Of a stretch of 64,000 nucleotides of DNA, positions 20,126 to 64,000 are shown in pieces. Location: the NCBI GenBank assembly GCA_947462335.1, contig OX381710.1, positions 58,040,842-58,104,841 on the forward strand, read 5' to 3'. The DNA is from Harmothoe impar. Taxonomy: Eukaryota > Annelida > Polychaeta > Phyllodocida > Polynoidae. Position 1 is the stretch's first letter. Each line of letters starts with the position of its first letter. The position numbers and the translations under genes were made by a program. Below the pieces are notes generated by a model. It was not told where the DNA came from and searched no databases. It saw nothing but the letters and a program-made list of their open reading frames with translations.

Positions 20126-20139
20126 CGTTTCTGGTACAT

Positions 20140-26363: not shown

Positions 26364-27046
26364 TAGGTGTGTGAGCAGTGGGGCCACTGCAGGCCGGGTG
26401 TTGGACGTCCCTACTCAAATTGATTTTTTGGTTTTAGGTTCTCCAAAATGTAGGACGCATAAATCTAATGTGGCCTGATTGAGAGCATGGAAGAACATAA
26501 GAATAAAAAATATATACTTCGGTATACGGATAGTTCCCTGATTAAGAACATGAGTTTCATTCTTTGAATGAAAGAAACCTTATTGTCGCACTTGGAAACT
26601 GCCGTTTGACTTGTCCTTTTATTAGAGCATAAAGATGAACCATTACAATAATAACAAGTACTGCTATTTTGTACATCTAGTCACAGGGTACCCATATCAG
26701 TTCCGATGAAGGTGACAGATGTGCATTCAAACAATTGTGCATTTAAACAGCTGTTCTCACCCTAAATCTGTCAGTAGTTCCGCAATCAGTGCCGATATGC
26801 CACTGGGAAGCATTCACATCGAAACAGTAGCACTGAGTATGCTTGGCAATATGGATGAATGTGTTTAATATCAGTTTAATATAGATGTGAATTAGGTGTG
26901 GGTGTATTGTACATGCAATTGTTATGTTTTCTAAGCTTCTAATTTGTTTAGGATTTCAAGCGGGGCTGGTAAGCCTTTATTAAAGTCAGATTGGGAAATA
27001 GGCGGACCGGACGGAACCTTGATACGGCGCTTAAGCAGTAAGTAAA

Positions 27047-33000: not shown

Positions 33001-36000
33001 GCTTATACGAGAGTTTTTATTAGTATACTACAGTACCAAAATCGTAATATTCAGAGCCCCTCTGCGGCTTATATAATTTGTCAAAGTTAGGGGTGCGGCT
33101 TATACGCGAGTTAGGCTTATACGCGAGAATTTACGGTAGGTATTAACTATGGCTTTGAAGGCCAGTGTGCACCATAGACACTTGTCTATGCTGCATGTGG
33201 CTCAAACCTGATGATAATAGGCCTGCTTGATACTTCCATTATTGGGAAGGAAGAGTATGATTATGCTTTGGGTTGATTAGCAGGACCTAGGATATCTGGT
33301 TCAACAAATACAAGAAATCATTGGAGAATGATTGAATAGATTCTAAAAACCCATAATTATCCGATCTTAGCCCGCTTTCAACCCGTCCAAAAACCGATCT
33401 AAGCCCGCTTTCAACCCGTCCAAAACCGATCTGAACCCACTTTCAGCCCGTCCAAAAACCAATCTGAGCCCAAAGTGGGAAGCCCGTCCAAAAACTGATC
33501 TGAGCCCAAAGTGGGCTTCCCGTCCAAAACCCGATCTGCGCCCAACATGGGAAGCCCGCACGGGGCCAGACCAAAGCCCAGTGCCCTAAACCGACGGGAG
33601 CCCGCCGGTTAGCCCACTCCGGGCCAGACTTGCAAACACAGTCTGGCCCCGTCCGGGGCCACAGTGTGTTTGCTACTAGGGCAGTATAGGCACAGACACT
33701 CCCCCTGGTGTGAGCGACAATAACTATAAAGTCGGCGCACTGCTGCCACCTCTCGGGCTTGTGCCCTTTGTACTATGTCATCACTTTTGGGCGCTGTCTG
33801 GGACTGACAACAACTTTACGACGGGGTGGGCCCCTTTTTACGATTTAATAGTATTTTAACCCCCCATCCAAGCATAATCATGCCGGGAACGAGGAGTAGA
33901 GTGACCAAGGCGCCTCCCAGTAAACACAATTACGTTGGTCAGACGTAAATTAACGTTGCTTTTTGGTCTGAACTACGTAATTTTGGAAGGTTTATCAACG
34001 TTAGAATGTTAAGGTTTATTTACCAATCTCAAACCTGCAGGTCTGACTTACGTAGCCCAGACGTAAATCTACGTCCAACTTTGTAAACACACTAATATAT
34101 ATAATATTACATCATGGGATTCAGACAAAGGTATTACAGACACATTAACATTATCAGACAATATTTATACAAACTAACTACTATCATTCTTAATCACATT
34201 TCTTTCTATATATATATATAGTACATCTTTATAGTTTAACTGAACAGCCTGACAGTATAGATCTATTGCATAGTTTTGGCTGCAGAGAGGCTTTGTATTT
34301 CTTCCATTACCACCAATGTGGTGTCTGCCCAGTAAAGTGCTTTAGTGTGCATATCAATGCTTAATTCTTTAACCTGCTATCCATAATATGTAATTATCAA
34401 ATTGTATATGGTTCATTTGCATAACATTTAATTCATAATTAATGAGAAATTACTGCTTGAATGTGGTAGATTCGTTAAAGAGCTGCCATATTCTCTCCAC
34501 AGTTGAACGTGTTGCCACCTAGTGTGAAACTGAGAAGTTATATACCCAATTGTTGTTGAAAAATTACGTAGTTTAACGTAGATCTACGTAAATTTGTTAC
34601 GTAAATTTACGTCCGAATGAGGTAGATAAACGTAAATCAGACTTCTACGTCTGTTGAACGTAAATAAACCTTCATGTTTTGACGTCTACAAACCTTCCAA
34701 ATTTACCTATCTCAAACCTTTGGTTGGAAAACTACCTAGAGAAACCTCAGAGCTACGTTGGAAATATGTAGGGTGTTTACTGGGCTGCGGAGACCACCAA
34801 ATCGGCGCCGGCAGCTCAAAAGAAGGCTCAAAAGACGGTTCGGCGACCGGCCCAAGCTGCCCCCGACCTTAGCACGCGTGTAAGTAATCTTGAAGGTGAA
34901 ATAACCGGCCTTCGCTCGGTCTCTGAGGACATACTCTCACAGTTAAAAACTCTTAATGGTCAGTCCATGGACACCAGTGCTAATTCTGAAGCAGACACAG
35001 TACTCCTGGAGCCCCAGGTGGAGACCGATGATGATGTGACCTTCGCCCGAGGACGCATGGCCCGGCCTCTGCCTAAGCCCTACGACCGGCCTACGCCTCA
35101 GGCGGCTGCAGCGCTGGCCGCTACCGCTAGAGACACAGGGAGGCGGGATGAAGTGATCCAGTTAATGACCTCGGCTGCCATCCCCTCTGCCTGCTCCCTG
35201 CCTCTGTCATCGCACGTCCCGGCCGACATTGCTCTGGCTGCTGAGTTGCAGTCTCTCCTCTCCACGGCGCACCACCTCACCAAGGTAAAGCAACCCATCC
35301 CCATCACTATGTGTTCAGGGGCCCTACACGTGTAAAAACAACCCTAAAATCTCTCTCTGGGGCCTCTCGCCTCATGAAAGACACGGCCACTGATGATGCT
35401 GCCTGGCCCTCCATTGCCACTCACCTGTACCAGGTAGTGGAGGACGGTAAGGACTTCCACTGGCCCCAGGTGAGGGAGTGGTCTGAGGAGGTTCTAAGTA
35501 AGATCTCGGAGGACCTGCTCACCTGGGAGGAAGTTGCAGAGATAAGGGGTATGAGGGACAGCTCCTCTAAGTTCAAGTTTGGTCGTCTTTCATGTCGAAG
35601 GTGGATTGGTTCAGGGCCACCATTGTAACTCCTGCTGCAAGTATTACAACAAGATTAATACTCACCCCAAGATAGGCTGCCGCAATAAAGGCCGCTTCCT
35701 CAGCCAGCAACAGCAGGTTGCCCAGCAGCCCCAGCCCCTGGCCCAGCAGTATTACAACTAAAACCAGCCGCCATTTCGGCCACAGGCCGGAACTGACCGG
35801 CCTCAATATTAACCCCTTCCACACGGTAAGCCAACATATTGCACAAAATTGCATTGAGTTACAAGAAACCCAGTGGTGAAAGGTTAAATGTCAACATAAG
35901 AACTGTCTCCCTATAGCTACCGGTCCTGATGTCATGCATGCTGCCCCTGCTACTCCTAGTAGTGGCAGAGCCGCGCAGGTTCATGTTCTCCCCCTGGCCC

Positions 36001-39000
36001 CCTAGCAACCGGCCAGGGTGCACAACATGGACCCAACCATCTCCCAGCCTGGCCCCTCCCTGGCCCCCACCACCAGCGGTGATCGGCTAGGGGGCCCGCT
36101 ACTGGCTGTGCATGGTGTAAATGCTGATGATTTTGAAGAAATTGTTGATGTAGACTGTGTCCTGCCTAGCAACATTAGTCTGGTAGCAGCGGTCCACTTG
36201 AAGGTGGACAAGACGTTTGCCACCTTCCAGGAGGTCCTGGCCCCGGTCTCAATTGGTATGGGACCCGGCCAATATGCTCCAATCAAAGCCACATTCTGGC
36301 CCACGCTCACAGGGGAAGACCGGTCGGCTTTCCCCATGTATGCCTATATGTACTGTGCTATAAACTACTCAGGTCTCCCCAATAGGCTGGGACCTAGAAT
36401 CCCAGTCCCCTCAGGCCTGAACCTCCCGGCCTGGAGGACCCTCCTGGCTGACTATCACGACCAGGATCTGTGTGACTACCTCCAGTACGGATGGCCGGTG
36501 GGTTATACTGCCACCTACCCGCCTGAACCAGTTGCTACCAACCACAAGTCTGCGCTCGACTACCCAAAGCAGGTCGCGTATTGTGAAAAAAGAGCTGGAG
36601 TTAGGCGGGGTAATTGGCCCATTTAAACAGCCTCCTTTCACCCCCTGGTGTCATACTGCCCCCCTCATCACCCAACCCAAAAAGGAGTCAAAGGACAGAA
36701 GGGTCATCCTTGACCTGTCCTACCCTGAAGGGGGTAGAACAGTCAATGCGGGCATCACCAAAAACTGTCTTGAGGGGGTCTCACACTGTTACACCCTTCC
36801 CACAGTTGAGGACCTTGCTACATATGTCAAGACACTCGGCCCCGCCTCGTTTCTGTGGAAAGGGGACCTGCAGAGAGCCTACAGGCAGCTTAGGGTGGAC
36901 CCTGGAGACATCCCCCTCCTAGCTTTCTCCCATAAAGGTCTCACATACCTGGATGTATGCCCGAGTTTTGGTTCCAGACTCTCAGGAGGTGCATGTCAGC
37001 GCACAACCTCAGCGGTATGTTACCTCATGAGGAAAGAGGGTTACACAACACTGGTCTGCTTAGACAATTTTTGTGGGGTGGAGGCAACCCTGGAGAAGGC
37101 AACACAGGCCTACCACCGATTCCAGGAACTCTGCTCCATGTTGGGTTGAGCCCCCGCGCCACTAAAGTGTTCACCCCCAGCACAAGAAATGGAGTGGTTA
37201 GGTTTCTTGGTCAACACTAATGCAATGTTTGTTTCTGTCTCAGGCGCCAAACTCCAGGAGGTGGTTGCTGAATGCAAAGACTGGTCAGACAAGAATGTGG
37301 CGACTAAAAAGCAGATTCAATCTCTAGCGGGCAAGCTGGTCCACCTCTCCTGCTGCCTCCCCCCGGCGCACAGATTCATCTGCAGAATCCTGGCGGCGCT
37401 GAGGGGAGCGCCGGAGCAGGGTCCCACCCACCTCCCAAACTCTTTCAGAGCTGATGTACTATGGTTCCAGAAGTATGCTGAGCTTTCAAATGGTGTCAGA
37501 CTGCTGGAACCTGACCTCAAAGAGTTTGGTCTGGAATGTGACTCCTCCCTGACGGGGGATGGGGGGAAAACTGACCACCACTTCTATTACCTCATCTACG
37601 AAAGGAGCACCACAAAATGTGCTCCCACATTGGCCAGAGTGAGGCCGCCAATATCGTCACTGCCTACCGTACCCTCACCCCACCCTCGGCCACCGGTATG
37701 AGGATAGTAGTGTACACTGATAACATGTCTTCAAAGTTTGCCCTACAAACAGGTAGAACAAGGGATCCAGTACTCACAGCCTGTTCAAGGCAGATGTGGC
37801 TGGAGGCTGCACTCTGCAACCAGCAGGTATCCATCAGGCACCAACCAGGCGCATTAATACCCTAGCAGATGCATTGAGTAGGTCCACAGATCCCGTGATG
37901 AGACTGCAGGCTGAAAGACTAGTCAAGCAGAGAGGACTCAAGAGACTCAAGCCACTGAAACCTTCACCTTTCTTCTCAAAGATATGATGCCTCTATGAAC
38001 TGTGTCACTAATATCTGTGTTTGATTTCTTAACAGGAACCCCCCTGGGGGACCAGACTATCGCCTATTACAATGTGGCTCTGACACAAGGCACTAAAGAA
38101 AACAGAGACAGGCAAGCCACCATGTATCTCACCTACGCCTTATCCTATGCCGTCGAGATACTTCACCCATCAATAAAGGATGGCTGCTTATACCAGCAGT
38201 ATTTGGCCAACTGCCTCAAGTCCCCCATCTCAAGGAAGTGCTACACATCTGGCGCAGTAATCTGGATTGCAGACAGGGAGGGTGACCCAGCTGGCCTAGT
38301 ATCTAGGCAAGCAAAACAAGTAGCGACTGGAGCTGCTCTACTCAACCCCCACACACCAAGTCCAGCTCCCCCGCTGACGCCTCAGGACCGACTACATGTG
38401 TGTGATTACCTGGACTCATCCCCCAGTGGAGCAGCAGTAGAGGCTGCAGTTTGTGTGGGTTTCTTTTCATTTCTCAGGTTGTCGAACCTGCTAGCCCCCT
38501 CAGTGTTATTGTGGAGGGGGCGCCACAGGAGAGATGTCACTAGTGATAAGCATGGACTGTTCTTAGTAATTAGGTCAAGTAAAACAATCAAAAAGGGTTC
38601 TCTTCCTACTGTGCTGGCACTACCCAGGATAAAAAAGAGCACTGTCTGCCCTGTTCGAGCATGGGACCTTTATGTCTCATCAACACAGGCGACACCAGAC
38701 TCACCGGCGTTCCTTACACCTATGGGCACTCCCCTGACCCCTGGACAGATGTGTCTGGTACTCCAAACAGGGCTCAAGAGGAAGGGGTGCCCCCATGCTG
38801 AGCGGATAACAATGCATTCTCTAAGCCGAGGGGGAACCCATGCCGCCCTCCTAGCAAACTGCCCCAAGGAGGACATAGCTAGGCATAGGCACCTGGAGGT
38901 CCAAAAATGGCATGAAAGCTTACACCCCTCACAAGGCCTCCTTCAGAGTCGCCGCCAACCTGTCAGCTCTATTTGCCTCTCAGGTACACACGGGCACCTC

Positions 39001-41458
39001 ATAAGATATTTGTATATCACTGTTCATATTTAGAACCATGTGTGTTAATGTCACTTGACATTTTAAAATATATACTCTACTTGTAACCTCAAAGGTCAAA
39101 AAGTAATTCTTACCGGTACATGCATATAAAGGTTCATTAAAAATGTAACTGCATAATTTTCACAGGATAAAATTACCAAAGTACAAACTTGTTGTGTTTG
39201 TCCAATCATTTGTAAAATGTCCTCGCATAGGCCATACTAGCATCCTCGCATATATATGCTATACAAACGCCCAGCATAAACCATGTAATGTCCGATGTTA
39301 GACCAAACTAACGCCCCAGTTTAGTCCAAAACTAACGCTTGAATTTAGGCCAACTGAATTTGGGAAGCTCAGGAGATGTGAATGGTTGGGCGTTATATAG
39401 GCGGGTGATCAGCCGTAATGTAGGTGGATGATCGGACTTAATATACTGTAAGTGGATTAAGCATTAAGCATTAAGAACGGGCACTAGGGGCATGGCCTAT
39501 TGTCTGGAGGGCTTACATTCATTATTATAGGGCCTATTTTCCGGGGAGCCCATTGTCATATGCTGAGGGCCTATCGTCCTAGGGTCCATTGTCAGGAGGG
39601 CTCCTGACCCAGACACCATATAACATATGTATGGTCTTACACACGTATTGCTCCTTCTAGGAATACACACACCTTGGGTTCAAACTGGCCTCAACTTCCT
39701 CGGGAAGTTTGCAATTACGGGAAGCTATTGTTCACTCTTGCTGTACACACCAGAGTTGTACCCAACTAAGACTAGGTAGGCATTCCTGTACTTCTACTAC
39801 CCATCTTGAATATTATATTAAGTAATCAATATTATGAATGCAAAAAAACTATATTTGTTGTGCTTTGGCATACAAATACTGGCTGATTTGACAAGAGTAT
39901 GGGTATTACAAAGGGATTTGATATAAGGGTCTCAGGCGCCTCAATTTCTTTTGAATAGAAGACTATAGAGCTGCGACCTTCAAAATATGCATCTCTCACA
40001 AAATCAGATCTGGTTAAGTCAGCAATAAACGTTATTAATATGCAAACATATGGTGTAATAGGTTGATATGAGTATCAATGACAAATATTCGAAGAACTGA
40101 ATGATGTTTCATTCAGATTAATTGCCCTGTTTCAATATTTCATTAGTTAAAAAAGTCCCCCTCCCAAACTGATGTAAAGTCGAACCACTAGTTTATCTGC
40201 TAAATGAACCATCTGTCTTTTTCAGGAGTTTATTCTATGGGCTCGCTTGGTCAGCAGCATATATTGGAGAATTTGTCGCTCCATTCTCTCGCCCACTCGT
40301 ATGTAATATTTCTACATAATCTATCATTTTCTAGAAATCCTCTCCCACAGTACTGTAGATCTATACATTCTTGCTTTCCATATGAACATAATTGTTATTA
40401 CAAGGTGACTATAGTGACATTGTAATATTTCAGCATCCTATTGAAACAGTCTGGCATAACTGTAGGTAGCAATGCGAGTGTCAGTGTTCGTGGGTTTTAG
40501 GTGTAAGGCCATGGGTTGTCTGTTTTTTTTAACCTGAAATTTACACCATTATGCCAATGTTAGACTTAAATCAAGAAATAAATCCTTTTCACAAGGACTA
40601 TTCTAGAAATATGTAAACATCATAAGATTCACAGCATGAACTTGGGCATGTAAGCAAACTTTCTATTGCTTAAAGCACCATATTGGTACAATATCTTATT
40701 CTTCAAGCATGAGTATATTTTATGCTTCAACCACAGACAGGAACTCCCCTGTATCCCCGGAATAAACCACCATGCTTGATCATCCCCCAGTCCCCCAGGG
40801 GATGCTTCCTAAGAAGTCAACTACACTAGATTCATGCCCAATGGTTAGGGTAGGGTTAGGGTTGGATTTGTTCTTTCTGATTACACTTAGGGTTAGGCTT
40901 AGGGTTAGATATATTAGGAAGCACCCCTGGGGTACCAGGGGAGTCCCTGTCTTTGCATGAAGCATAAGATATTCCCTGAAATCTTCTTCTTCAAGCATAA
41001 GATATTGCGCTAATGAGGTGCTTAAAGTCATCCTTTAACTGCTTTAAGTTCAGGAATTGCCATGGAAATATCATGGAACGGTCATAATGATATTTGAGCA
41101 GCTTTAAGTGGCATTTTCTGGACTTAAATATGCTAAAGTGTGAATCTTTGCTGAAATGCCTATATTCATACAGTGATTCACTGCATTATATCAGCATAAC
41201 CTTTTGTTCTTATCAAGTGTATTTATAATGTTTCTTCTCGATGTCTAGGAGTTAGCACGACCCGGTGTGGTGCGCGGCATGTGCGGGGGGCTGTGTGTTG
41301 TGGGTGGCATGCTGGTTCTCCTACTACCTGAGACCTCCTGCAGACCCCTACCCACCACCGTCACAGAGATAGAGCACTGGTCAACCACAGTCTCCACACA
41401 GGAGAGGCAGGCTTATAACGAGACAAGAACCAAGGAGATAACACCACGGGCTGTGTAG
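27047..41458 (+). CDS. SLC22 organic-ion transporter, 11 exons, complete
   Basis: Exons: 27047-27203, 28231-28433, 28628-28769, 28993-29081, 29468-29664, 29830-30189, 30839-30973, 31282-31361, 39661-39775, 40226-40298, 41249-41458. All junctions are AG/GT and phases agree, giving about 586 aa without stops. It is a 12-helix plasma-membrane carrier of organic cations, anions or zwitterions (SLC22, MFS). Hallmarks in order: N-terminal amphipathic stretch and helix 1; a large extracellular loop with several Cys and NES/NYT sequons (exon 2); LADMYGRKPVF after helix 2; VELFPTKYRTVAG; DESIPWLIAKGK before the long intracellular loop; KFGRRWP; PELYPTKTR; LLPETSCRPLP near the end. The central loop in exon 6 is longer than usual and acidic. 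Intron 8 (31,362-39,660) carries nested transposons. Substrate is not predictable here. Confidence 0.92.
27545..28150. mobile_element. Inverted pair of tRNA-like SINE copies in SLC22 intron 1
   Basis: About 27,545-27,775 and 27,925-28,150 are inverted, diverged copies of one sequence. Each contains GGGGGAGTGGTTAGGACAC and a TTCGAATCCATGCC-type segment, reminiscent of tRNA A and B boxes. They share the further segment GAAGCTGGTTCCT. The pair could pair in the transcript. The tRNA origin is an inference from the box-like motifs. Confidence 0.55.
32277..33681. mobile_element. CCCTAGTAGCAA-ended DNA element, copy 2 (inverse), with nested insertion
   Basis: Inverse copy of the element at 25,176-26,363: begins CCCTAGAAGCAAGCCC and ends TTTGCTACTAGGG, flanked by CA on both sides. 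Most of its length aligns by eye with copy 1, except for a 226-bp insertion at 32,913-33,138. It lies in SLC22 intron 8 and has no coding capacity. Confidence 0.8.
32913..33138. mobile_element. TA-flanked MITE nested in the copy-2 element
   Basis: Inverted ends TACCGTAAATTCTCGCG and CGCGAGAATTTACGGTA; the interior repeats GCGGCTTATACGCGAG. The uninterrupted target is visible in copy 1 (around 25,710, GCCATAGTTCATATCTACAT), so the insertion and its TA duplication can be read directly. A diverged relative is at 22,312. Confidence 0.8.
33881..35820 (+). pseudogene. DIRS gag-like region, broken
   Basis: A start MPGTRSRVTKAP (33,881) is interrupted by the MITE at 33,916. The frame resumes after 34,784 with a K/A-rich, coiled-coil-like stretch (LEGEITGLRSVSEDILSQLK) and continues to 35,335. 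A shifted frame carries on to 35,628, and a third frame reaches a degenerate Cys/His stretch (CNSCCKYYNKINTHPKIGC) that may be a former zinc knuckle. At least two frameshifts are needed. Confidence 0.6.
33916..34784. mobile_element. MITE with CCCAGTAAACAC ends, inserted in the DIRS gag region
   Basis: Begins CCCAGTAAACAC and ends GTGTTTACTGGG. The interior is packed with TACGTAAATTTACG-type palindromic words near both ends. It interrupts the gag-like frame of the DIRS element and is therefore younger than it. Confidence 0.75.
35809..35887. mobile_element. 79-bp mini-MITE, copy 2
   Basis: Inverse copy of the unit at 7879-7958 with ends TTAACCCCTTCCA and GGTGAAAGGTTAA. It sits between the gag-like and RT regions of the DIRS element. 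Confidence 0.6.
36018..37987 (+). pseudogene. DIRS reverse transcriptase-RNase H, broken
   Basis: Three to four frames carry consecutive parts of one polyprotein. First comes the pre-RT segment ending near 36,626. Then comes RT (to 37,149) with GGVIGPFKQPPF, RRVILDLSYPEGG, motif A DLQRAYRQL and motif C CLDNFCG, where the second catalytic Asp is replaced by Asn. Then a connection/RNase H segment with LECDSSLTGDGG, VYTDNMSSKFALQTG and finally TLADALSR (to 37,987). Breaks are near 36,600, 37,150, 37,650 and 37,860. It is not functional. Confidence 0.8.
38002..39033 (+). pseudogene. DIRS tyrosine recombinase, inactivated
   Basis: 343-codon frame of a phage-integrase-fold recombinase. Visible are the first catalytic Arg region (GFFSFLRLSNLLAPS), the Lys region (IRSSKTIKKGS) and the His box HSLSRGGTHAALLANC, where Ser stands at the position usually occupied by the second catalytic Arg. 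The tyrosine-bearing segment (MKAYTPH) is present only in another frame near 38,900-38,935, so a frameshift precedes the nucleophile. In DIRS elements this enzyme integrates a circular DNA intermediate. Confidence 0.8.
39061..39660. other. Remainder of SLC22 intron 8; nothing recognised
   Basis: AT-rich intronic sequence up to the acceptor of exon 9. No repeats with clear ends. Confidence 0.4.
40744..41000. repeat. Inverted repeat around TTAGGG-like motifs in SLC22 intron 10
   Basis: CCCCCAGTCCCCCAGGGGATGC, ATGCTTCCTAAG and their approximate inverses (TTAGGAAGCACCCCTGGGGTACC) flank a core with several GGGTTAGGGTTAGG-like words (about 40,844-40,910). The structure suggests a small foldback element; the TTAGGG words are too few to be telomeric. 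Confidence 0.4.
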
Positions 41459-52674: not shown

Positions 52675-53805
52675 CTGCAACGTTAGTATAAAGCGTCAGA
52701 TGACTAATTTTACCTGAGAACTCTGTAACCTTTGCGGAGGTATGTTTTTTAGACGTGTTTATTTCCCACTATCATTGTCTCATTTTATTCGGAACAAATG
52801 TGAGATCGTCATGAATTAGATGTAAGCATTGATTTAGATCACATTTCATTGAGGGATCTTCTTGAAAATCCCATTGCAGAAGATTTCTTGTAAGTCCGTA
52901 GCGTGGGGCAGAGATGGGTAGGGGGGTGAGTAGGGGGGGGGTCTCTGCCAAGGGAGATTGGTCAGGTTTAATTGATTATATGATATCCATATCTGTATAA
53001 TTTGAAATACATAAAGCCCCTATAACACACAAATAAAGTGTAGTGTCTGTGGTCTACTCATGGTATAGATGTACCAATAGAACAGACAGTCATCTCATGG
53101 GCGTTTACCCTGCGTAGTTAATATAGTACAGCCACAAAAAAAAAGAATTGGCCTTAGTCGATGCTGATCACGAGTCAGAGACTTTTTCCACCATACAAAT
53201 AGTGATTCTACAAATAAACAGTTATACCCTCCCACCATTCACCAAGGCACATTAATGTACGGGCATCCATTTATAGAATGTGGCACAGATAGAGTCCTGC
53301 CGCACCAAACTAGCTAAGTACAGCCAGAAAAGCCCAAGGACTAGAGTAGGCAGAAAACACCTGTATACATTATAGGTAGACTGACACCGCAGGGTAATTT
53401 ACTTCCCTGTATGACTGTATAGCAGCTGTAGCAGCTGAGCGCTGACTGGTTCTGCTGATCTGGGAGTTCCGAACACTTTCGCATATCCATGGTATTCAGC
53501 GCATAACGGTATTGTGGACATCTACATCTTAGGCCCCAACCTCCCCTATGTATATATATAAGGTCCACAGCACGAGGCTTCACTCCACTCCACTCATACT
53601 GGAAGGGTAGTAAAACCTGGACCTATAACATGCCTTGCGAGAGGCACAACGCCAAGGGAACTTCCCAGAACATAGGTATAACAATAAGGGGGGAAATGTA
53701 TAGAGACATATATCTAGATACTGTCATTGTAGCAAGAACCATTTATGTTGTGAACGACATTATCTCCTTCACTTAATTAAACTAATCTGGGGAATATTTA
53801 GCGCG
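52675..53805. other. Receptor intron sequence; nothing recognised
   Basis: Between the most upstream recognised receptor exon and the 10-kb element. Contains a G-run (about 52,919-52,942) but no convincing exon; a Cys-rich minus frame at 53,341-53,583 has no splice support. Confidence 0.4.
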
Positions 53806-53811
53806 GACATC
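53806..53811. other. Target-site duplication GACATC, left
   Basis: Six bases directly repeated at 63,827-63,832, immediately outside the terminal AGTAGT. Confidence 0.85.
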
Positions 53812-53874
53812 AGTAGTATATAATGTATCGGAACGGGACTATGCTTAAGTACTGTTTATTACTCAATGGACATG

Positions 53875-54235
53875 CAGCCAATCAGAGGCCTCCATTTGGT
53901 CACGTGACCGGAAGTGACCTACTTAGGGGATTAGTGGTGACGTCACGTGACCTAGTTAGCCAATCAGAGGCCGCCATTTGGTCACGTGACCGGAAGTGAC
54001 GTCATATGACCTACTTATGGACCGGAAGTGACGTCATATGACCTACTTAGGGGACCGGAAGTGACGTCATATGACCTAATTTAGGATCACGTGACCGGAA
54101 GTGACCTGATGAGTCACGTGACCGGAAGTGACGTCACATGACCTAATGGCCAACCGGAAGTGAGTGACCTCATTGAGGATCACGTGACCGGAAGTGACCT
54201 GATTGATCACGTGACCGGAAGAAGAAGTGACGTTA
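53875..54235. promoter_or_regulatory. ETS/CRE/E-box/CCAAT motif array in left TIR
   Basis: Recurrent composite ACCGGAAGTGACGTCA (ETS site fused to a cAMP-response element), GGTCACGTGACC (USF/Myc-type E-box), CCAATCAG (NF-Y-type) and GGCCGCCATTTGG (YY1-like). Nine ETS cores in about 330 bp is far above chance. The same array occurs inverted at about 63,405-63,765. Function as enhancer/promoter is inferred; binding of an element-encoded factor is an alternative. Confidence 0.7.
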
Positions 54236-54687
54236 CGCGACTTAATGAAGAGATGAGCGTCTTTAAGGGGTCACGCGCTTTAAAATGTGATATATATTTT
54301 TTTTGGAGGAGGAGGAGGAGGAGGAGGAGGAGGAGGCGAGTCTCTTATTTTTTTTGGTAAACCAATAAAAAACACAACAATATAAGTTTGTTTTTTCATT
54401 TTTTATTTTTTTATGAGCGACTGGAAGTGACTTATTGAACTAGGTAGAAGCGTTCTTTAGAGTGTATAAGGGGGGAGGGGAGGGGAGGGGAGGGGAGGGG
54501 GGGAGGGGGGCCCCTTTAAGATGCATGGGGAGGGGGGCGCTTTTAGGATGCATGGGGCGGGTGGGGGGGAGGGGAGGGGAGGGGAGGGGAGGGGGGAGGG
54601 GGGAGGGGGGCACTCTAGGGGGGTGGGGGGGCACTCTAAGGGGCATTTGTCTCTTTTAAGAAAAAAAGAAAGAGAAGAATTTAATCG

Positions 54688-54729
54688 AGAGACACACTTC
54701 TTCCTCTCGAGAGGAAGAAGTGTGTCTCT
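54688..54729. repeat. 42-bp perfect palindrome at inner edge of left TIR
   Basis: Two 21-nt arms with no loop, centred on CTCGAG between 54,708 and 54,709. A matching palindrome lies at about 62,909-62,950 in the right TIR. It can extrude as a cruciform. A role in replication start, resolution or transcription termination is possible but unproven. Confidence 0.9.
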
Positions 54730-54960
54730 TAATTTTTTTGTTTAGGAAGTGACTTGATGAGGCACGTGACTAGAAGCGACGTCGTCACATGAGTGACACT
54801 TTAAGAGGCCACGCGACTTACTAATAAAAGAAGACGTATGAAAATAAAAACACAACAATAATTTTTTTTAATTTTCTTATTTCTTTTTTTTCAATCTTGA
54901 TAAACACTCTATTTTTGAAAAGATGCGCTCGATCAATCAATAACACGCTTATTTTTTTTT

Positions 54961-57900
54961 TCATATCTCTAAAGGACTCGTTGTCACACCGTCAGAATGC
55001 ACGCGACACTTATAATACAAGTAGCGCACGCCGTCTTTCTCTATGGTGTAGGTGACCATTTTGTTTCGCACCACTTTGAAATTTCTATTTACCGCAAGGA
55101 GAGTTTTTCGTTGGTGAAGAACATCCAAGAAGTCGTCTGGTTCTTTAGGGTTTTGTTTCTTCTGCACACCTTTTGCACTCCATTTTTTGGATTTTCTTTC
55201 ACCGGTGCCGCTGACTCGATCGTAGCAAATGTAAGTCTTAGGGTTGAGACTTAGGATCCCGTCACCTTCCCACTCCGCTTTCATAAGCCCCGAAGTTCTC
55301 AGATCGTGAAGGTAACGTCTCTCACAACATCCGCCGGGCGGCGGACACCATTCTCACACTCTTTCCGTTTTTGTCTTCACGAAAAGCTCTAAGTGATCGT
55401 CGCACACCGCTGTCGGAATCCACTTTCGTTTCTCTCTGAAGTACGTCTCTCTCAGGCGAGGTTTGACTAGGTCATCCAACGTGTCACCACTGAGAGCCAT
55501 GTAAAGACTGTCGGTGTCCATTTGACAAAGGGCATAATCGCGCCGATCGACGAATCTATCCAAGAAGTCGTATGTGAACTCTAACATTTTCAACTTCGCG
55601 TACTGGTATACCATGAACCCTATTTGAATAGGGAGGTTGTTCTTGACTGTTTTCGGTTGTAGTTCGACTTCAAACAGATCAGAACTCAACTCGGACGCCT
55701 TTTTGAAGCGCCACGAATTGGCCAATAGTTCGAACTTCGGACTGTCAGTGTATCTCACCGCCGTGTGTTTTTCTTTGTTGCAGATTGTTTTACCGTACGT
55801 GGCGTTTCCCATTAACTTGTAACAGTCTGACAGAATTTTCTCGTTCTCGTTCACGTCGCCACGTCTTCGCGCCGCCGTTACTTCGTCCGCAAAACCGGCA
55901 AAGGAGCGTTTAGGTATGTATTCTACGACCAGCTGCACTTTGGTGACTATCAAACCGTGCTCTAAATACCATTTGAGAAGCGGCGTTCCCAAGAGAATAT
56001 TTTTTCCGTGGTAACTCCCTACCAGACATCTCTGAGGCGTGTTCAACAGCTTTTCTTCCTGCGCAAAGTCTGACATGTGAGGTCCTATGTCTGATTTTGA
56101 AACGGACACGTTCTTGAAAACGGGGGTCATTTCTTTGAAGTAGTCTCGTAGGTGAGGCAGCGTAGTGATGTCCACTTGAACTAAACCGAACATTTTCCCG
56201 TCTTTCACAGCGGAAAGGATGTCGCTCCCGCTCATTGCGTTTCGAGACACTTTCAAAGCGTCAACCTTCCAGCGTTGTTGGGAGGCCTTAACCCGCTCAT
56301 CTCGACGCTTCATCTCTCTCCATTCGCACTCCCACACGACGACCAGCTTGTAACCTAGCGCTTTCAAGTAAGCGCTTACTCTAGTCGTTCTGTCGCGTCT
56401 CTCCTCCCTCAGTGAAGCGCATTGATATCGGTGCGACGGTATGCACTCGTGAGCGTGGAACCAACACCCGTGAAACTGGAAAACCGTATTAGAGGCCGCG
56501 TGAAACCCGTCGACGCGAATTCTTCGACAGCCTAGAACCATCTCGCCGCCGTTGAAAGCGTGGCGCAGTTTCACGTCGCGGTCGTGCTCTACGAAGCGTA
56601 ACCACTCCAAAGCGCTGTGAGAGTTTCTTTGCCTAATTTCGGGCTTGAACTCGGTCTCAGGTTGTCTCACCGCGTAATAGCCCGTGCAGTGCGCTTCGCT
56701 CATGCAGTGCAAGTACAGAGAGTTAGAGTCTAGGCGTAGGATGTGTTGGCACGGTCTCGCTTCTTCGCCGTACTTGTGCTCCCTTATCCGCGTGGTGCCC
56801 TTCTCGTGAAATCTATGGAAGATGATGGAAGGACCGCCGACTAGATTTTCTTTGATCAGAGCGTGGAGGACGGCGTCGAACTGGGGGAACGTTGTGAACG
56901 CGTCTTCTAGGTTTTGGAAGAGGAACCGTAAAGTCAAACCGGCGAGAGAAACCCCGTCTTTCAACATGTCAATGCCGCGATCTTGGAAAAATTTAGCGTG
57001 ATTTTTCAGAGCTTCTATCAAAGGTTTGACGTCTTTGTTGTTGTAGTGGATCAAGTAATCTCCCATAGTTTGCATCTTCTCATCGGACCAAACTTTCTGA
57101 CATGCGGCGTAGTCGGATTCGGACATTTTGACGCCCGTCAGTTCGCTGTCAAAAGCCGATCTCGGTGGCAGTGTTCTGTTTCCCAGTTTCCTGGTAGACG
57201 TCATCCATTCGTAAGGAAAGTGACCTTTCTCTTCGTTTCTGGTGAAAGCTCGCAAATAGTTCGCGTAGTTGTAACCGGGTGCCAAATAGTTGACTACGTC
57301 CAAGAAAACCGTGTGCTGTGTGTAAACCGCCAAGTATTGATTGCTTCTCTTAATGACGCTGAATTCTTGGTTTCTTCGGTCTCCGGAGGCAAAGAATGAG
57401 TGAAGGCGTATTTTGATCAGGTTCAAGTCGTAACGCCCCGAGTTGAAGCCCACGACTGGAGCTTGACGGATGTATCTCAGAAGCCGCTTCTTCAGTTGAA
57501 CTAACGGGTGTCTGGTCTGAGCCGCAGCGAAGCCGCCTGGAGAAGGGGTGAATGCCGCCTCCTCCAGCAGGAGAGCTTCACCTATCGCCGCATCTAACTT
57601 CGCTAACGTCGGTCGGTAAAGTTCTAGCACAGCTTCCCCGATGACTTTGGCGTTCTCGTTTATGTGATTTAAAACTCGGTCCAACAAGGGGTCGGAATCT
57701 GCGTCGGATTCTCTGACGAAGCAGACTGGCCCCTCCCACCCCGGAAAGTCGGATGCGACGCTAGCCGACAAAGGGACGTGATCCCACAGCAGGGACACGT
57801 GTTCCGTCGACGGTTCTCTGCACGGTCTGAAGAAAGCCTCGAAATCGAAGGTGATCTTGTAAGGGTAGATTCTGGAATGTCCGTCGGGAGGAAAAATGGA

Positions 57901-58860
57901 TAAGTCTGCTAGCGCTTCGAAAATCCTTCTCGAATTTGGTAGATGCCACCTACGTAGCGCAACTTGACTTGTCGGCAAGAGGAAAGCTGGTTCCTGTGTC
58001 TCCTCAGCAAGAACTCGGTGGTGAACGCCGCCTTACACTTGCAACATTCGTATATGCCCGCGTACGCGTTGAAGTGACCAGAGAGACGTGCAAACCGCCT
58101 TTCGCCGTCAGGTGTAGGTTGACTTTACCTCGGGCGGCCAGAGTTCTGGAAGGCGGTCTGATCAGAGTAACGCGTCTTCTCAACTTCCGCCCCGGCACCT
58201 GACGCGACGCGGTGTAAACCGCTATTTGTACGTCAAACAAGTTCTCTAACGCGGGTAAGTCGCGGATGTTCAAACCCGGAAAGGTTCAGGTGTGGCAGCG
58301 GGACAGAACTGACGTAACAAATCTGAAGCACGCTTGCTGGTGTTGTATAAGTGAAAGGAAATGCAGCGGAAGACGCAGAGGTTGTCCTTGTTGGGAAAAT
58401 CTAACACGCCGCTTCTTTTTCCAACTCGACCGGCCTGAGTGATCCTACTGCCTATGGGAAATTCCCCCGGTCCTGTGTAAACGCAAATGTTCAAATTGGT
58501 AGGAAAAAGAATGTGCCACTTGGTGTCAGCGTCGCAAAGTTTCCGTACTTCCTCGCAAGCGACGGTGTTTTCCATGTTTGAGAGGAGCTCTTCCAAAGTT
58601 TCTGAATTAGTTATAGTAGGGAACGGTTGTATGAGAGTTGCGTTGTTCTGGGAGGCGTGAAAGTAGCGCAGTTTGCTCTTGTCTTCTCTGTGTTGTAAGA
58701 GTAAGCCTACCGAGAAACCCACTTTGTATCTGAATCTTTGCTTGAAGTGAATGCGACGCATAGTATCTACAGCGTCACTCAACTCGCCGGTGGTAGCCTG
58801 AAGTTTGTTACACTCACGCGAGTCCCGTGCATCCTGACGCCCGTTTGTATTGCAGGCCAA
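54961..58860 (-). pseudogene. Protein-primed family B DNA polymerase, interrupted
   Basis: The longest frame (57,978 down to 55,354) carries all B-family motifs: Exo I FDFEA (about 57,835), Exo II GFNSGRYD (57,427-57,450), Exo III YNNKDV, motif A LRLDSNSLYLH, motif B KLMGNATYGKT (about 55,800) and motif C MDTDSLY (55,501-55,521). An HGCWFHAHEC...WECEW domain sits between exonuclease and palm, as in Polinton relatives. Upstream frames hold the expected N-terminus: KDNLCVFRCISFH (58,270-58,860), then NIRDLPALENLFDVQIAVY (58,004-58,273), then a CCKC...RRH...C zinc-finger-like segment in a third frame (about 57,950-58,070). Reaching full length needs three frame changes (near 58,290, 58,090 and 57,920). 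It also needs passage of an in-frame TGA at 55,354-55,356, after which the normal C-terminus (GLMKAEWEGDGILSL, KKWSAKGVQKK) runs to 54,961. The first in-frame ATG is at 58,759-58,761. The role would be replication of the element from its termini. Confidence 0.85.
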
Positions 58861-59138
58861 TTCGCCGTGAACGTTTCCTCACCGTTCGGTACAGCACATA
58901 TGCGCGGAGGGATAGTCACCCCGTCCAGAGATTCGCGTCGACAGGTGATCTTTCGGCAATCGCCTTCGCCGCATAGAGGGCAAAACTTAGGTATTACTCT
59001 ACATTTTTCTCGTGATTGTACGGTCTTTTAAAAATTTTGAAACACTTTTCGCAGACGTACTGCGTCATGTTTTTTTTGTTTTTTTTTGTTTTTTCACTTA
59101 GTTACCAATTAAAAAAAGTTTTTCCCAACTACTTTGCC

Positions 59139-59175
59139 GTCTATCTATCTATCTATCAATCTATCTGTCTATCTG

Positions 59176-59222
<47 letters not shown>

Positions 59223-59228
59223 GTCTGC
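59139..59228. repeat. (ATCT)n microsatellite between polymerase and PC4-like genes
   Basis: About 90 bp of ATCT/GTCT repeats with few interruptions. Plus-strand open frames of repeated YLSI across it are artefacts. Confidence 0.9.
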
Positions 59229-59307
59229 TGTCTGTGTATCCGTCTGTCTGTCTCATACAGCGTACGTCAAACACTGTGTGTGTGCGCGCGTGAGCGTTGA
59301 GCGTCTC

Positions 59308-60948
59308 TCATTCCAAATCTATACCGAGAAATTTGAGAATAATCTCTGTTTTGTCATCCAACTCTTTGAGCGCTCTGGCAGACAGCGTCACCCCCTGCTG
59401 TGTGGGTTTTTTGTCAGGACCTTCGTACTTGCGCACGTGGATGAGGTTCTTACCGCTGTAATAGCTCACAGCTGCGTACACTTCGCCCTCCTCATCCAGC
59501 ACTGCGAACCAGGGGGTGTGATTAGGTCTTCCTTGCGCGGACGCTGTGTCGCGTATGCGCACCACTGCGCGGATATCGGCGATGCGCGCTAGTAGCTCGC
59601 GCAGCGCGTCGGCAGTGAAGTGCACTCGCTTGCTTCTGGTCAGAGATGCCTCTTTCACCTGGCCGTCTTTTGTGTAGCGCGGCCTCCTAGACAGTCTAGC
59701 CACGTCCTCCCAGATCTCCAGCGTCAAAGTCCCGTCTAAGCAGAACTCTAACCCGAGAGGACGGGGGGTTTTCTCTGCTTCTTCTCGTCCATCTTCTTCT
59801 TTTTCTTGTATTTTTCTCTTCTTAGTAGGCCTTGTTGTTCTGGAACCCGCCTTAGAACGTTTCAGACCCGCAAGAAGAGTAACACCATCAGCGTGGGCTG
59901 AATCAGCAGCAGAACCAATAACAGGAGCAGCGTCAGCGCTGGTGGTATCCGAGGACTCGTTGTTGGAACAGAGCAGCCACACGCCGTCGGTGCTGAGTGT
60001 AGCGGTAGAAGATGAAGCGCCGCCGCCCTCGTAAGGTGGCGGTGAGGGCAGTCGCCACGGACCGGACGCGCTACCAGTGGAAGTGAGGTCGAAAGTAGTG
60101 GAAGAGGGGAGCCGAAAAAACGTACCGTCCTCCCCTTGCCCTTCGGGTTCGTCGTACGCCTCGTCGTCAGCGTCGTTCTCTGTCTCACCCTGTTGCTGCT
60201 GCTCCTCCTCCTCCTCCTCCTCTTCTTCTTGGTTTAGGGGCTGAGTGTCCGAATAGCTGTAACTCTCAGCGCGAGCGGCGTCGATGGCGTCGGTTGATGT
60301 AGTGGTGGAGAGGGGCTGTGCAACGTGCGGCAGGTCATCAAAATCGGCAACAGTAGTGGGGAGGTAAAAACCCGGTTGCCAGTACTGCGCTGTGCCAGGA
60401 GCGTTGTCGTCAGTAGTAGTAGCGGTAGCAGCAGGTGCAGCAGCAGCAGCAGCAGCAGCAGGCGCAACAGTAGCAGGCGCAGCAGCCTCAGCAGGCGCAG
60501 CAGTAGCAGGCGCAGCAGTAGCAGGCGCAGCAGTAGCAGGCGCAGCAGTAGCAGGCGCAGCAGCAGCAGCAGCAGCAGCAGCACGAGGATCACCAGCACC
60601 AGCAGCAGCAGCAGCAGCAGGCGGGGCAGCAGTAGCAGCGGCAGCGCGCTTAGCAGCAACGTGTACCGTCGCGAGTGTAACAACGTCGCTAGCACGACGA
60701 CTACTACCAGTAGTACTGCTACTACTACCACTACTACTACTACTACTACTACCGCTACTACTACTACTACTACTGCTGCGAGCGCTCGCTACAGCGGGAG
60801 GGTGATAAGACCAAGCGGTTGCGGCGGTAGTCTCATTTTCAGTAGCAAGAGGGGGCACTGACGCTAAACGAGCGCTGTTCCGCGTAGTCTTCTTGTTCTT
60901 GAACTTGCTTAGATCCTTGGACGGCGCTAGGTGTTGTCTTTTGCTCAT
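59308..60948 (-). CDS. PC4-like (ssDNA-binding) protein with long low-complexity N-terminus
   Basis: Start chosen at ATG 60,946-60,948 (CCACC before it, sequence MSKRQHLAPSKDLSK), giving 546 aa; 59 nt upstream is a TATATAAG box. The first 350 residues are low complexity: Ser runs, Ala/Thr/Pro repeats and an acidic E/Q stretch, followed by a basic SRTTRPTKKRKIQEKE nuclear-localisation-like patch. The C-terminal 150 residues are ordered. The segment GKNLIHVRKYEGPDKKPTQQ then GVTLSARALKEL matches the transcriptional coactivator p15/PC4 pattern (strand, IR-Y, T--G, helix). The preceding half (LTLEIWEDVARLSRR, SKRVHFTADALRELLARI) may be a second, diverged copy. PC4-fold proteins bind ssDNA and occur in several dsDNA viruses, so a replication or transcription role is likely. 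The low-complexity part shows shadow frames on both strands. Confidence 0.6.
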   Translation of the reverse strand: MSKRQHLAPSKDLSKFKNKKTTRNSARLASVPPLATENETTAATAWSYHPPAVASARSSSSSSSSGSSSSSSSGSSSSTTGSSRRASDVVTLATVHVAAKRAAAATAAPPAAAAAAGAGDPRAAAAAAAAAPATAAPATAAPATAAPATAAPAEAAAPATVAPAAAAAAAAPAATATTTDDNAPGTAQYWQPGFYLPTTVADFDDLPHVAQPLSTTTSTDAIDAARAESYSYSDTQPLNQEEEEEEEEEQQQQGETENDADDEAYDEPEGQGEDGTFFRLPSSTTFDLTSTGSASGPWRLPSPPPYEGGGASSSTATLSTDGVWLLCSNNESSDTTSADAAPVIGSAADSAHADGVTLLAGLKRSKAGSRTTRPTKKRKIQEKEEDGREEAEKTPRPLGLEFCLDGTLTLEIWEDVARLSRRPRYTKDGQVKEASLTRSKRVHFTADALRELLARIADIRAVVRIRDTASAQGRPNHTPWFAVLDEEGEVYAAVSYYSGKNLIHVRKYEGPDKKPTQQGVTLSARALKELDDKTEIILKFLGIDLE

Positions 60949-61006
60949 GGTGGTGACTGTAGAGAGCAGCAAAAGACTGAGTGAGTGAATGGGGGTTTCC
61001 AGTCCC

Positions 61007-61014
61007 CTTATATA
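61007..61014 (-). promoter_or_regulatory. TATA box of the PC4-like gene
   Basis: TATATAAG on the minus strand, about 60 nt upstream of the ATG at 60,948 and within the 1.1-kb divergent control region. Confidence 0.65.
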
Positions 61015-61028
61015 CGCCTTCTCGCTTC

Positions 61029-61405
61029 TAGAGCTAAGCTACTTACTGCCCCTGTTCAGCTGCCGCCGGCTGGCCGGCGGCCATTCACAAAGAGAAACAA
61101 AAGACATAATGCATGACGTTTTCAGCTGGATCCCTTTCCCCGCTTTTGAGAGATCGACTGTCATGAGCTAAGCTACTTACCACCCTGTTCAGCAATTCAA
61201 CGCGCATTAGCTGTATAAAGGATTAAGCAGTTGCTGCCGCCGGCTGACCGGCGGCCATTCACAAAGAGAAATAAAAGACATAAGGCATGATGTTTTCAGC
61301 TGGATCCCTTTCCCCCCCCCCTTTGAGAGATCGACTGTCATGAGCTAAGCTACTTACCACCCTGTTCAGCAATTCAACGCGCATTAGCTGTATAAAGGAT
61401 TAACG
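61029..61405. repeat. 177-bp tandem duplication with GC palindromes
   Basis: GAGCTAAGCTACTTAC, CTGTTCAGC, the GC palindrome CCGCCGGCTGGCCGGCGG (61,063 and, with one change, 61,241), CATTCACAAAGAGAAA and GATCGACTGTCATGAGC recur with a 177-bp period. Each full unit also has CTGTATAAAGGATTAA, a TATA-like site. It lies between the two divergent transcription units, where a bidirectional promoter or replication control site would be expected. Confidence 0.75.
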
Positions 61406-61902
61406 GTCATGAGCTTAGAGTGTGTATACAAAAAAACTACAGGAGGCGTGTGGCGTGAAGCAGGACCCCCTAAGACGAGCGTGTCTGTCTGTGAGTAGAG
61501 GCGTGTGCATGTGGTGAGCGACTTAAGTGTAAAACAAAACAAAAATCACCGCCTCCTGCCGTGGTGAGTAGACTGGGCCGGCCGGCGGCGGCCGGCTAGT
61601 TCAATAGGGGTGACAGCTGACTAAGGCTGTGCATGAAAAAATCCGATTTTCACCTGACCTCTGACGTTTGTTACAATGAATGTCAGAGGGAGAGAGAGTC
61701 GTCCTCAGGTAGGGGGTAGGAGGTAAGGCTATGGATGAGGAAAAAACACCATTTTCAGCTGGTCTCCACCGATAGCGATGACATACTCCTCGTCATCTAA
61801 GCTCTTAAGAAGCTCTTAAGGAGCGGAGCGGCTGAAAAGCGTCATGCGGACAGGTCGCTAGACAGCTGGGGTGCTGTTGGAAATAGGATTAAACTCCCTC
61901 TG

Positions 61903-61909
61903 TATAAAA
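61903..61909 (+). promoter_or_regulatory. TATA box of the death-domain gene
   Basis: TATAAAA in CTCTGTATAAAAGCTCTG, about 115 nt before the ATG; the start site would fall near 61,930-61,940. Confidence 0.7.
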
Positions 61910-61963
61910 GCTCTGATTTCTGTTGGAAAAAAACCATATCGCCTCTGACCACAGTAACGTCTA

Positions 61964-61973
61964 CTACCACCAC

Positions 61974-62010
<37 letters not shown>
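61964..62010 (+). repeat. (CCA/CCG)n triplet tract in the 5' leader
   Basis: CCACCACCACCGCCGCCG and further GCC repeats end 13 nt before the ATG of the death-domain gene, within its predicted 5' untranslated region. Confidence 0.85.
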
Positions 62011-62011
<1 letters not shown>

Positions 62012-62023
62012 AGACGAGACGAG

Positions 62024-62761
62024 ATGGCTCAAGCTATTCCACTTTCAAGCTCGCCTTCACCCCCTTGTCCACCTGAAAAGTTAATGCGGCTTGACGACGT
62101 GAGACGCGCGGTGCAGACCGATGGGGAGAATAGAGAGGTAGGACAGCGGCGCTTAGCATATAGCGACGCCTTGCTTCGTCAACTAGGTAAAGAGCTGAGC
62201 GGATCTTGGAGAGAGTTGGGCAGTAGCTTAAAAGTTACCGCCGCCCGTATGGATGCTCTAGTAGAGCGCAGTGTCAAGACACTGGAGGAGCTGTGTACGG
62301 TGATGTTCCGAGTCTGGTGGGGTGAAACCCCGCATCGTCATAGATGGGGAGAGCTCGGCCGCGTCTTCACCCGCATTAGACGAGTGGAACTGTTGGCTCA
62401 GTGGATGACCCTTCTCCACAGGCAGGGGTTGGATTTCGAGAACCCCGACTCGCACGCGATGCATAAGCACTTGGGCGCCCTCGGCAGACGCCTAGGTAGC
62501 CGGTGGAAAGAGGTGGGGGGCCATTTAAAATTGTCGCCTGAGAGGTTAGATAAGATTGCTGAAGAATGCGAATACGGAGGAAGTCCCGCTGAGTGGGCCT
62601 TCCGAGTGTTGAAAATGTGGCAAGCTGAAGCTGACGGTGCCGGCAGTACGCCTTTTGAACTCCTTCGAGTGTTGACTGAGGACATGGGAAAGTTTGACCT
62701 CGGCATCGCGATATTACTTGACTTTATCAAGCAAGAAACAACGAGAACAACGGACATGTGA
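62024..62761 (+). CDS. Tandem death-domain protein carried by the mobile element
   Basis: 245-aa intact single-exon gene. After a Pro/Ser-rich N-terminus come two copies of a death-domain-like six-helix pattern. Copy 1 is about residues 46-125 (LLRQLGKELSGSWRELGSSL, then RVWWGE). Copy 2 is about residues 146-232 (LGALGRRLGSRWKEVGGHL, then AFRVLKMWQAE and FELLRVLTEDMGKFDLG). The core W between helices 1 and 2 and the conserved W near helix 4 are present in both. Death domains mediate homotypic assembly in apoptosis and NF-kB signalling; there is no enzyme, membrane or DNA-binding part, so an adaptor or decoy role is inferred. TATA at 61,903, AATAAA at 62,821. Nothing else in the window shares its sequence, so capture from a host is likely. 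Confidence 0.8.
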   Translation: MAQAIPLSSSPSPPCPPEKLMRLDDVRRAVQTDGENREVGQRRLAYSDALLRQLGKELSGSWRELGSSLKVTAARMDALVERSVKTLEELCTVMFRVWWGETPHRHRWGELGRVFTRIRRVELLAQWMTLLHRQGLDFENPDSHAMHKHLGALGRRLGSRWKEVGGHLKLSPERLDKIAEECEYGGSPAEWAFRVLKMWQAEADGAGSTPFELLRVLTEDMGKFDLGIAILLDFIKQETTRTTDM

Positions 62762-62820
62762 ATTGTTGTGTTTTATTTTCATACGTCTTCTTTATTAGTA
62801 AGTAAAAAATATATTATAAC

Positions 62821-62826
62821 AATAAA
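62821..62826 (+). terminator. Polyadenylation signal of the death-domain gene
   Basis: AATAAA 60 nt after the TGA stop, followed by GTGTCCTC (G/T-rich region). Just before the right TIR. Confidence 0.7.
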
Positions 62827-62891
62827 GTCGCGTGTCCTCTTAAAGTGTCACTTCCTCCGGTCGCGGCTGATCGCCTCATCAAGGCATGTGA

Positions 62892-63826
62892 TAAACAAAA
62901 AAATTAAGAGACACACTTCTTCCTCTCGAGAGGAAGAAGTGTGTCTCTCGATTAAATTCTTTTCTTTCTTTTTTTCTTAAAAGAGACAAACGCCCCTTAG
63001 AGTGTCCCCCCACCCCCCTAGAGTGCCCCCCTCCCCCCTCCCCCCTCCCCCCTCCCCTCCCCTCCCCTCCCCCCCACCCGCCCCATGCATCCTAAAAGCG
63101 CCCCCCTCCCCATGCATCTTAAAGGGGCCCCCCTCCCCCCCTCCCCTCCCCTCCCCTCCCCTCCCCCCTTATACACTCTAAAGAACGCTTCTACCTAGTT
63201 CAATAAGTCACTTCCAGTCGCTCATAAAAAAATAAAAAATGAAAAAACAAACTTATATTGTTGTGTTTTTTATTGGTTTACCAAAAAAAATAAGAGACTC
63301 GCCTCCTCCTCCTCCTCCTCCTCCTCCTCCTCCAAAAAAAATATATATCACATTTTAAAGCGCGTGACCCCTTAAAGACGCTCATCTCTTCATTAAGTCG
63401 CGTAACATCACTTCTTCTTCCGGTCACGTGATCAATCAGGTCACTTCCGGTCACGTGATCCTCAATGAGGTCACTCACTTCCGGTTGGCCATTAGGTCAT
63501 GTGACGTCACTTCCGGTCACGTGACTCATCAGGTCACTTCCGGTCACGTGATCCTAAATTAGGTCATATGATGTCACTTCCGGTCCCCTAAGTAGGTCAT
63601 ATGACGTCACTTCCGGTCCATAAGTAGGTCATATGACGTCACTTCCGGTCACGTGACCAAATGGCGGCCTCTGATTGGCTAACTAGGTCATGTGACGTCA
63701 CCACTAATCCCCTAAGTAGGTCACTTCCGGTCACGTGACCAAATGGAGGCCTCTGATTGGCTGCATGTCGATTGAGTAATAAACAGTACTTAAGCATAGT
63801 CCCGTTCCGATACATTATATACTACT
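62892..63826 (-). repeat. Right terminal inverted repeat of the Polinton-type element
   Basis: Inverse of the left repeat with only a few substitutions seen by eye (for example TGACATCA for TGACGTCA, CACATGACC for CACGTGACC), several at CpG sites as expected for methylated DNA. Confidence 0.9.
62909..62950. repeat. 42-bp perfect palindrome at inner edge of right TIR
   Basis: Same palindrome as at 54,688-54,729, centred on CTCGAG. It lies about 150 bp after the stop of the death-domain gene, downstream of its AATAAA. Confidence 0.9.
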
Positions 63827-63832
63827 GACATC
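63827..63832. other. Target-site duplication GACATC, right
   Basis: Matches 53,806-53,811 exactly; adjoins the terminal ACTACT of the right inverted repeat. Confidence 0.85.
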
Positions 63833-64000
63833 AGCTCAGGAAGCAGATGCACTTGTAGCTCCAGAGTAGTGACTGGTCAAACCCCTGTAACAGGTGTTCA
63901 TACTTTAGCATATAATAAGTACCCTCGGAGATAGATTGTTTAATTCCTATGTTGATATGATAGTAAGTATAGTAATACCTATTTGCTAATATTTGAGATT
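63833..64000. other. Host flank right of the element
   Basis: Short host sequence after the target duplication; nothing recognised. Probably continues the receptor intron or its 5' flank. Confidence 0.4.

Follow-up and report, generated by a model that had tools for sequence, protein, structure and literature searches.

The insertion and its three genes

The 64,000-nucleotide stretch of the annelid Harmothoe impar analysed here (contig OX381710.1; hereafter the window) contains a confirmed insertion of 10,015 bp at 53812-63826, whose ends resemble those of Maverick (Polinton) elements. Its termini are AGTAGTATATAA and TTATATACTACT (AGTAGT...ACTACT), and it lies between two copies of the target-site duplication (TSD) GACATC, at 53806-53811 on the left and 63827-63832 on the right. 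The left terminal inverted repeat (53812-54746, plus strand) starts with (AGT)2 and is 99% identical to the right one (62890-63826, minus strand), which finishes with (ACT)2; the alignment over 935 bases has 926 identities, 9 mismatches and one 2-base gap, and patchy similarity continues up to ~1,048. Repeat alignment and flank sequence thus bear out the GACATC duplication and ~935-bp inverted termini given in a preliminary description of this DNA. The first 774 bp of the repeat contain four mismatches, three of them, by our reading, at CpG sites.

Three genes are identified through homologues and protein families. Two lie on the minus strand, for a B-family DNA polymerase (PolB) and a PC4-like protein; the third, on the plus strand, encodes a protein with two death domains. 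The count of three in the preliminary description held, with no further gene seen between the genes and the repeats, but the polymerase, to which it ascribed all motifs, is not intact: the PolB gene of the window copy (54964-59062, minus strand) is a pseudogene of six frame blocks with one in-frame stop. A full-length relative, P0001 (1,375 amino acids (aa), 96%), maps to 59062-54964 in these six blocks; all five frame changes lie within the first 1.1 kb, the stop is at 55354-55356, and one change falls among the 74 invariant sites that were checked. The frame-change points show no homopolymer enrichment, and sequencing error may be their source. The DNA_pol_B_2 match is above the cutoff (E=7.8e-8), and the class of this PolB is Maverick/adintovirus-like and putatively of the protein-primed type. 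It branches among Maverick/adintovirus-like relatives, and the nearest viral folds include adintovirus PolB and bidna-like densovirus PolBs.

Two further domains lie within the polymerase. An OTU-like core in its N-terminal region (58088-58386, minus strand) has a conserved D..C.F and a later H, with the Cys and His columns conserved across relatives, and in the relative P0029 its fold matches OTUD1/DUBA at E about 0.01. A Vsr-like endonuclease segment (56263-56493, minus strand) matches phrog_13076 (4.5e-7), 1odg (E=0.0018) and 1vsr (E=0.079), and the one short match in phage records is confined to this part. A contig of a bacterial metagenome-assembled genome (Cohaesibacter; L001:2-316) opens with animal-type PolB, ~82 aa that run on into bacterial sequence, and the join is probably a product of chimeric assembly. 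The sizes of sequences bearing PolB relatives, several near 9.3-10.1 kb and several near 16.6-17.6 kb, hinted at two classes but prove nothing.

The PC4-like frame (59308-60948, minus strand, 546 aa) is open in the window copy. The N-terminal part of the protein is acidic and of low complexity and its C-terminus is PC4-like, with a Pfam match (E=1.7e-4) whose 21.5 bits fall short of the gathering cutoff, 25; the C-terminus is modelled as four strands and one helix at a block predicted local distance difference test (pLDDT) score of 52-64. The double-death-domain gene (62024-62761, plus strand, 245 aa) has an intact frame, and its product matches the Pfam Death family in two stretches above the cutoff (E=9.8e-8), as do all four homologues, with two stretches apiece. 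It also resembles RIPK1 and FADD weakly in sequence.

A multicopy family in the host genome

By the test proposed in the preliminary description, a family would be established if several complete copies shared the three genes and differed in their 6-bp duplications, and such copies are found in the host genome (1,511,831,793 bases (1.51 Gb) in 736 contigs). A terminal-repeat search, which scored the best 40 of 2,125 candidates, returned many facing pairs. Counting the window copy, there are at least 22 complete insertions in all, of which 20 have perfect 6-bp duplications, all different. Beyond the window copy there are at least 21, with 19 perfect duplications and two bearing one mismatch: the eight further pairs of a first set (all perfect and distinct), 11 additional pairs (nine perfect, two with one mismatch), a derivative of 1,125 bp that keeps one repeat in full and has a 38-bp opposite end and a perfect duplication, and one member (9,351 bp, duplication CAGTAT) of a subgroup whose repeats are more divergent. 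Complete insertions range from 1.1 to 12.0 kb, and a few family ends deviate from the (AGT)2//(ACT)2 motif by one base.

All nine copies of the first set, 9.3-12.0 kb long, carry the PolB, PC4-like and death-domain genes in identical order; in the longest, an additional ~2.2 kb separates PolB from the PC4-like gene. In each of the nine the death-domain gene measures 738 bp; it is uninterrupted in 7, with a ratio of nonsynonymous to synonymous polymorphism (pN/pS) of 0.25. Compared with one chosen copy, the PolB pieces of the other eight diverge by 1.4-1.8%, with a pN/pS of 0.45, and the whole PolB frame is uninterrupted in at least two of the nine. When the genome was searched with P0034, a PolB of another clade, 31 of the best 33 of 7,871 candidates, the loci that were scored, had no stops, with frames of 1,376-1,391 aa.

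Gene counts in the further stretches took in 18 of 20, leaving out a short derivative (L049) and a flank (L059). PolB occurs in 16 of them, the PC4-like gene in 15 and the death-domain gene in 13, and both ends are visible in 11. The family includes deletion derivatives of 5.0-8.1 kb and 1.1 kb, and a divergent kind (L053, L055 and L063) in which other DNA replaces the PolB centre: PolB residues ~764 (587 in L063) to 1206 are without a match, as is the death domain. Open frames in this centre (L053:2699-3691, minus strand, 331 aa; L063:2113-2868, minus strand, 252 aa) have no Pfam match and are possibly captured genes. The two stretches without a PolB match, L052 and L064, have Ty3/gypsy-like frames in or beside them, by eye, the insertion in L052 being similar to that in L064.

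Searches for integrase, capsid and protease

The genes and repeats of the window element leave four stretches between them. No stop-free piece there exceeds 78 aa, and the longest is simple sequence; 10 stop-free pieces, antisense included, gave nothing better than E=0.038 in Pfam. No stop-free intergenic piece is thus able to hold an rve integrase, and the nine first-set copies have no match to the integrase probe, which comes from the distant relative L002. Capsid-like, protease and integrase probes from L004 and L002 found no match in these nine copies at E<=1e-4, although those from L004 succeed elsewhere in the host genome; in the window copy the capsid-like probe from L002 scored best (E=0.010), inside PolB. 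No hexon was matched in the window frames or the nine copies with these distant probes. In the frames scanned, Pfam matched neither a parvovirus-type capsid nor a superfamily 3 helicase, nor a packaging ATPase, at which no probe was aimed. The sole capsid, protease or integrase probe match in the 18 further stretches (integrase, E 1.1e-5, in L064) was rejected as a helper, as by eye it sits among Ty3/gypsy-like frames.

The window element is therefore not a solitary deletion derivative: the copies examined contradict the refuting condition of the preliminary description, that every other copy would carry integrase and capsid genes. The preliminary description had envisaged a reduced, self-replicating, integrase-dependent lineage; reduction is supported, because the copies examined lack an integrase, capsid or protease match. 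Self-replication is doubtful for the window copy, whose PolB is broken, and dependence on a foreign integrase is presumed, no such integrase having been identified with the L002 probe.

Capsid-like genes are present elsewhere in the same genome. The L004 capsid-like piece matches at least 129 loci, those scored among 2,490 candidates, with a best E of 1e-50, no stops in 125 of 129 and many identical scores. We apply the capsid label from the adjacency of a protease, which matches S273R (E 0.0047), and from our own reading of the frame. In L004 itself, PolB and protease adjoin tail-to-tail. At one locus, on C10 (around 29,437,000-29,450,200), a 2.5-kb flank has a capsid-like gene, a protease (38% to the L004 protease, E 1.3e-26) and, ~0.7 kb past the protease, an inverted terminus like that of the window element, matching its bases 1-59 at 91.5% and 1-117 at 85%. 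None of 12 PolB queries matches in this flank. That a capsid-like element has such an end is a hint that the two kinds are partners, as a satellite and its helper or as parts of a split genome; the end may also be a fragment of an adjacent PolB element. No relatives turned up in IMG/VR when it was scanned with the PolB, death-domain and PC4-like sequences and the capsid-like sequence of L004.

The outer 460 bp of the left repeat (53812-54271, plus strand) form a motif array with CCGGAAGT eight times, TGACGTCA five times and CACGTG seven times, against shuffle means of 0.04, 0.01 and 0.24; the motifs are not independent, because the array is partly tandem, and we take them to be ETS-, CRE- and E-box-like, respectively. 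Between the divergent genes lies a 177-bp tandem duplication (61059-61403), and TATATA (61009-61014, minus strand) and TATAAA (61903-61908, plus strand) are possible TATA boxes, by sequence match only, of the leftward genes and the death-domain gene. An Rfam scan of 53000-64000 gave nothing at the gathering threshold. Elsewhere in the window, frames at 36000-39030 resemble a DIRS-like retrotransposon (reverse transcriptase, tyrosine-recombinase-like) and those at 1934-3244 and about 17400-31500 resemble SLC17/sialin-type transporter exons, both by eye only. Tandem units of 33-36 bp cross open frames at 25312-26242 and 32384-33580, and 20796-22229 is occupied by large tandem arrays, their units about 46-160 bp long and seemingly present in both orientations.

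A probable reduced Maverick family: interpretation and comparison

We consider it probable that these insertions are a multicopy, reduced Maverick (Polinton) family that carries only a replication set and is integrated in trans by other Maverick-type elements in its genome. What we infer in this reading are the capsid label, an integrase acting in trans, the functions of the PC4-like and death-domain products and any packaging. Host factors and PolB would act on the terminal repeats with their ETS-, CRE- and E-box-like motifs, PolB would prime at the AGT ends, by analogy with the inference made for Mavericks, and the family's own PolB would copy elements from these repeats. During strand displacement the PC4-like protein, a below-cutoff family match, would probably coat single-stranded DNA, while the double-death-domain protein would probably blunt host death or NF-kB signalling. 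Copies would then enter the chromosome, flanked by 6-bp duplications, through an integrase that Maverick-type elements with near-identical ends provide in trans. Integration with a 6-bp duplication needs an integrase, and none is found in the element; C10-type elements would be its likely source. Packaging in trans may also occur.

Such cooperation might instead be obligate, with the PolB/PC4-like/death-domain element and a capsid-like/protease element (presumably with the integrase) being two segments of a bipartite Maverick that share common ends, are scattered separately through the genome and are incomplete alone. The C10 arrangement, with a terminus soon after the protease and no PolB match, differs from that of L004, where PolB stands beside the protease, and fits this idea. 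So do the spacing of the genes, as none of the 33 scored PolB loci lies within 40 kb of the 129 scored capsid-like loci (the nearest is at 140 kb), and the confinement of all 33 best P0034 matches to one narrow band of 915.8-921.3 bits. However, the idea rests on one flank of one element, and only 33 of 7,871 and 129 of 2,490 candidates were scored. In the portion of PMC8097293 on which we draw, modules are rearrangeable and point apart in Rhinella, so PolB may occupy the other end of the C10 element. We regard two obligate segments as possible but doubtful.

It is less probable still, and in our view unlikely, that the copies arose from a full Maverick by internal deletion, now outnumber this parent and have no biology of their own. 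The position of their PolB among Maverick/adintovirus-like relatives agrees with such an origin, and the family does have shorter derivatives. On the other hand, the three-gene layout is kept in all nine first-set copies, with signs of coding constraint, and homologues of the death-domain protein (three, at 95, 77 and 56%) and PC4-like protein (one, at 79%), their genomic context unseen, parallel the closest PolBs (96, 78 and 66%), as if the genes had been kept together. The end-state of an unknown small virus, also raised in the preliminary description, gained no support. An endogenised non-Maverick virus with borrowed PolB and repeats would resemble bidnaviruses, which acquired both from Polintons according to the part of PMC4061559 cited here, and bidna-like densovirus PolBs are among the nearest viral folds. 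Yet the scanned frames have no parvovirus-type capsid or helicase match, the (AGT)2 ends, 6-bp TSDs and PolB class are those of Mavericks, and a capsid-like element bears a matching end, which makes this origin very improbable.

Several observations weigh against a reduced family integrated in trans. No Maverick-type integrase was identified in the genome with a single distant probe (L002) of untested sensitivity, and the L004 and L002 capsid-like frames matched no Pfam or PHROG family. What is seen at C10 is one 2.5-kb flank of one element, its other end, TSD and remaining genes being unseen. Copy counts are lower bounds biased to the best-scoring candidates, and all three genes occur together in 11 of the 18 further stretches, the others being of deletion, insertion or divergent type. 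In the death-domain gene, private changes comprise 18 nonsynonymous, 16 synonymous and two stop changes, and the pN/pS values pool all pairs and ignore CpG decay. PC4 scores are 21.5 and 20.6 bits in both homologues against the cutoff of 25; the model of the PC4-like protein is poor, and its structural matches (VIA-align rows, OspA etc.) are uninformative and were disregarded because of its mean pLDDT of 37.3.

The replication set of adenoviruses comprises PolB, a single-stranded-DNA-binding protein, anti-death proteins and transcription-factor sites in the terminal repeats, and the PolB, PC4-like and death-domain genes and the motif array are similar to it. Unlike adenoviruses, the window element is without capsid genes and has death domains in place of anti-apoptotic proteins. 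Mavericks are taken as self-sufficient, with replication, integration and capsid genes carried together, and a limited literature search found no description of a PolB-only Maverick with PC4-like or death-domain genes. If the reduced family is what we propose, replication and capsid/integration modules are separable and cooperate in trans, as in a satellite or multipartite animal DNA virus or transposon, and the double-death-domain gene is a candidate transposon-borne modulator of host death signalling.

Vertebrate Mavericks, in the sections of PMC8097293 used here, are 12.7-24.6 kb long with eight (seven) core genes, (AGT)2//(ACT)2 ends, a 6-bp TSD and terminal inverted repeats of 46-1,447 bp. 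The family shares these ends, the TSD length and the PolB class, putatively protein-primed, and the window repeat length is in range. In contrast, the window element is 10 kb long and has PC4-like and death-domain genes; integrase, capsid and adenain-type protease were not found in the nine first-set copies with distant probes, nor an ATPase in the general Pfam scan, which had no dedicated probe. With no integrase, capsid or protease match to the probes used, it is not a Maverick in the full sense and looks like a replication-only Maverick. Adintoviruses, or MELD viruses, share the PolB fold match and an N-terminal OTU-like domain but are defined also, in the portion of PMC11071296 cited, by a hexon and an rve integrase with a chromodomain, neither of which was found in the window element with distant probes. 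Bidnaviruses are similar in their Polinton-derived PolB and inverted repeats and differ in the parvovirus-type capsid and helicase, which Pfam did not find in the frames scanned here; their genome is split over segments (PMC4061559, in part). The proposed family, if real, would suggest how segmented viruses with a PolB, bidnaviruses among them, could have arisen from Mavericks.
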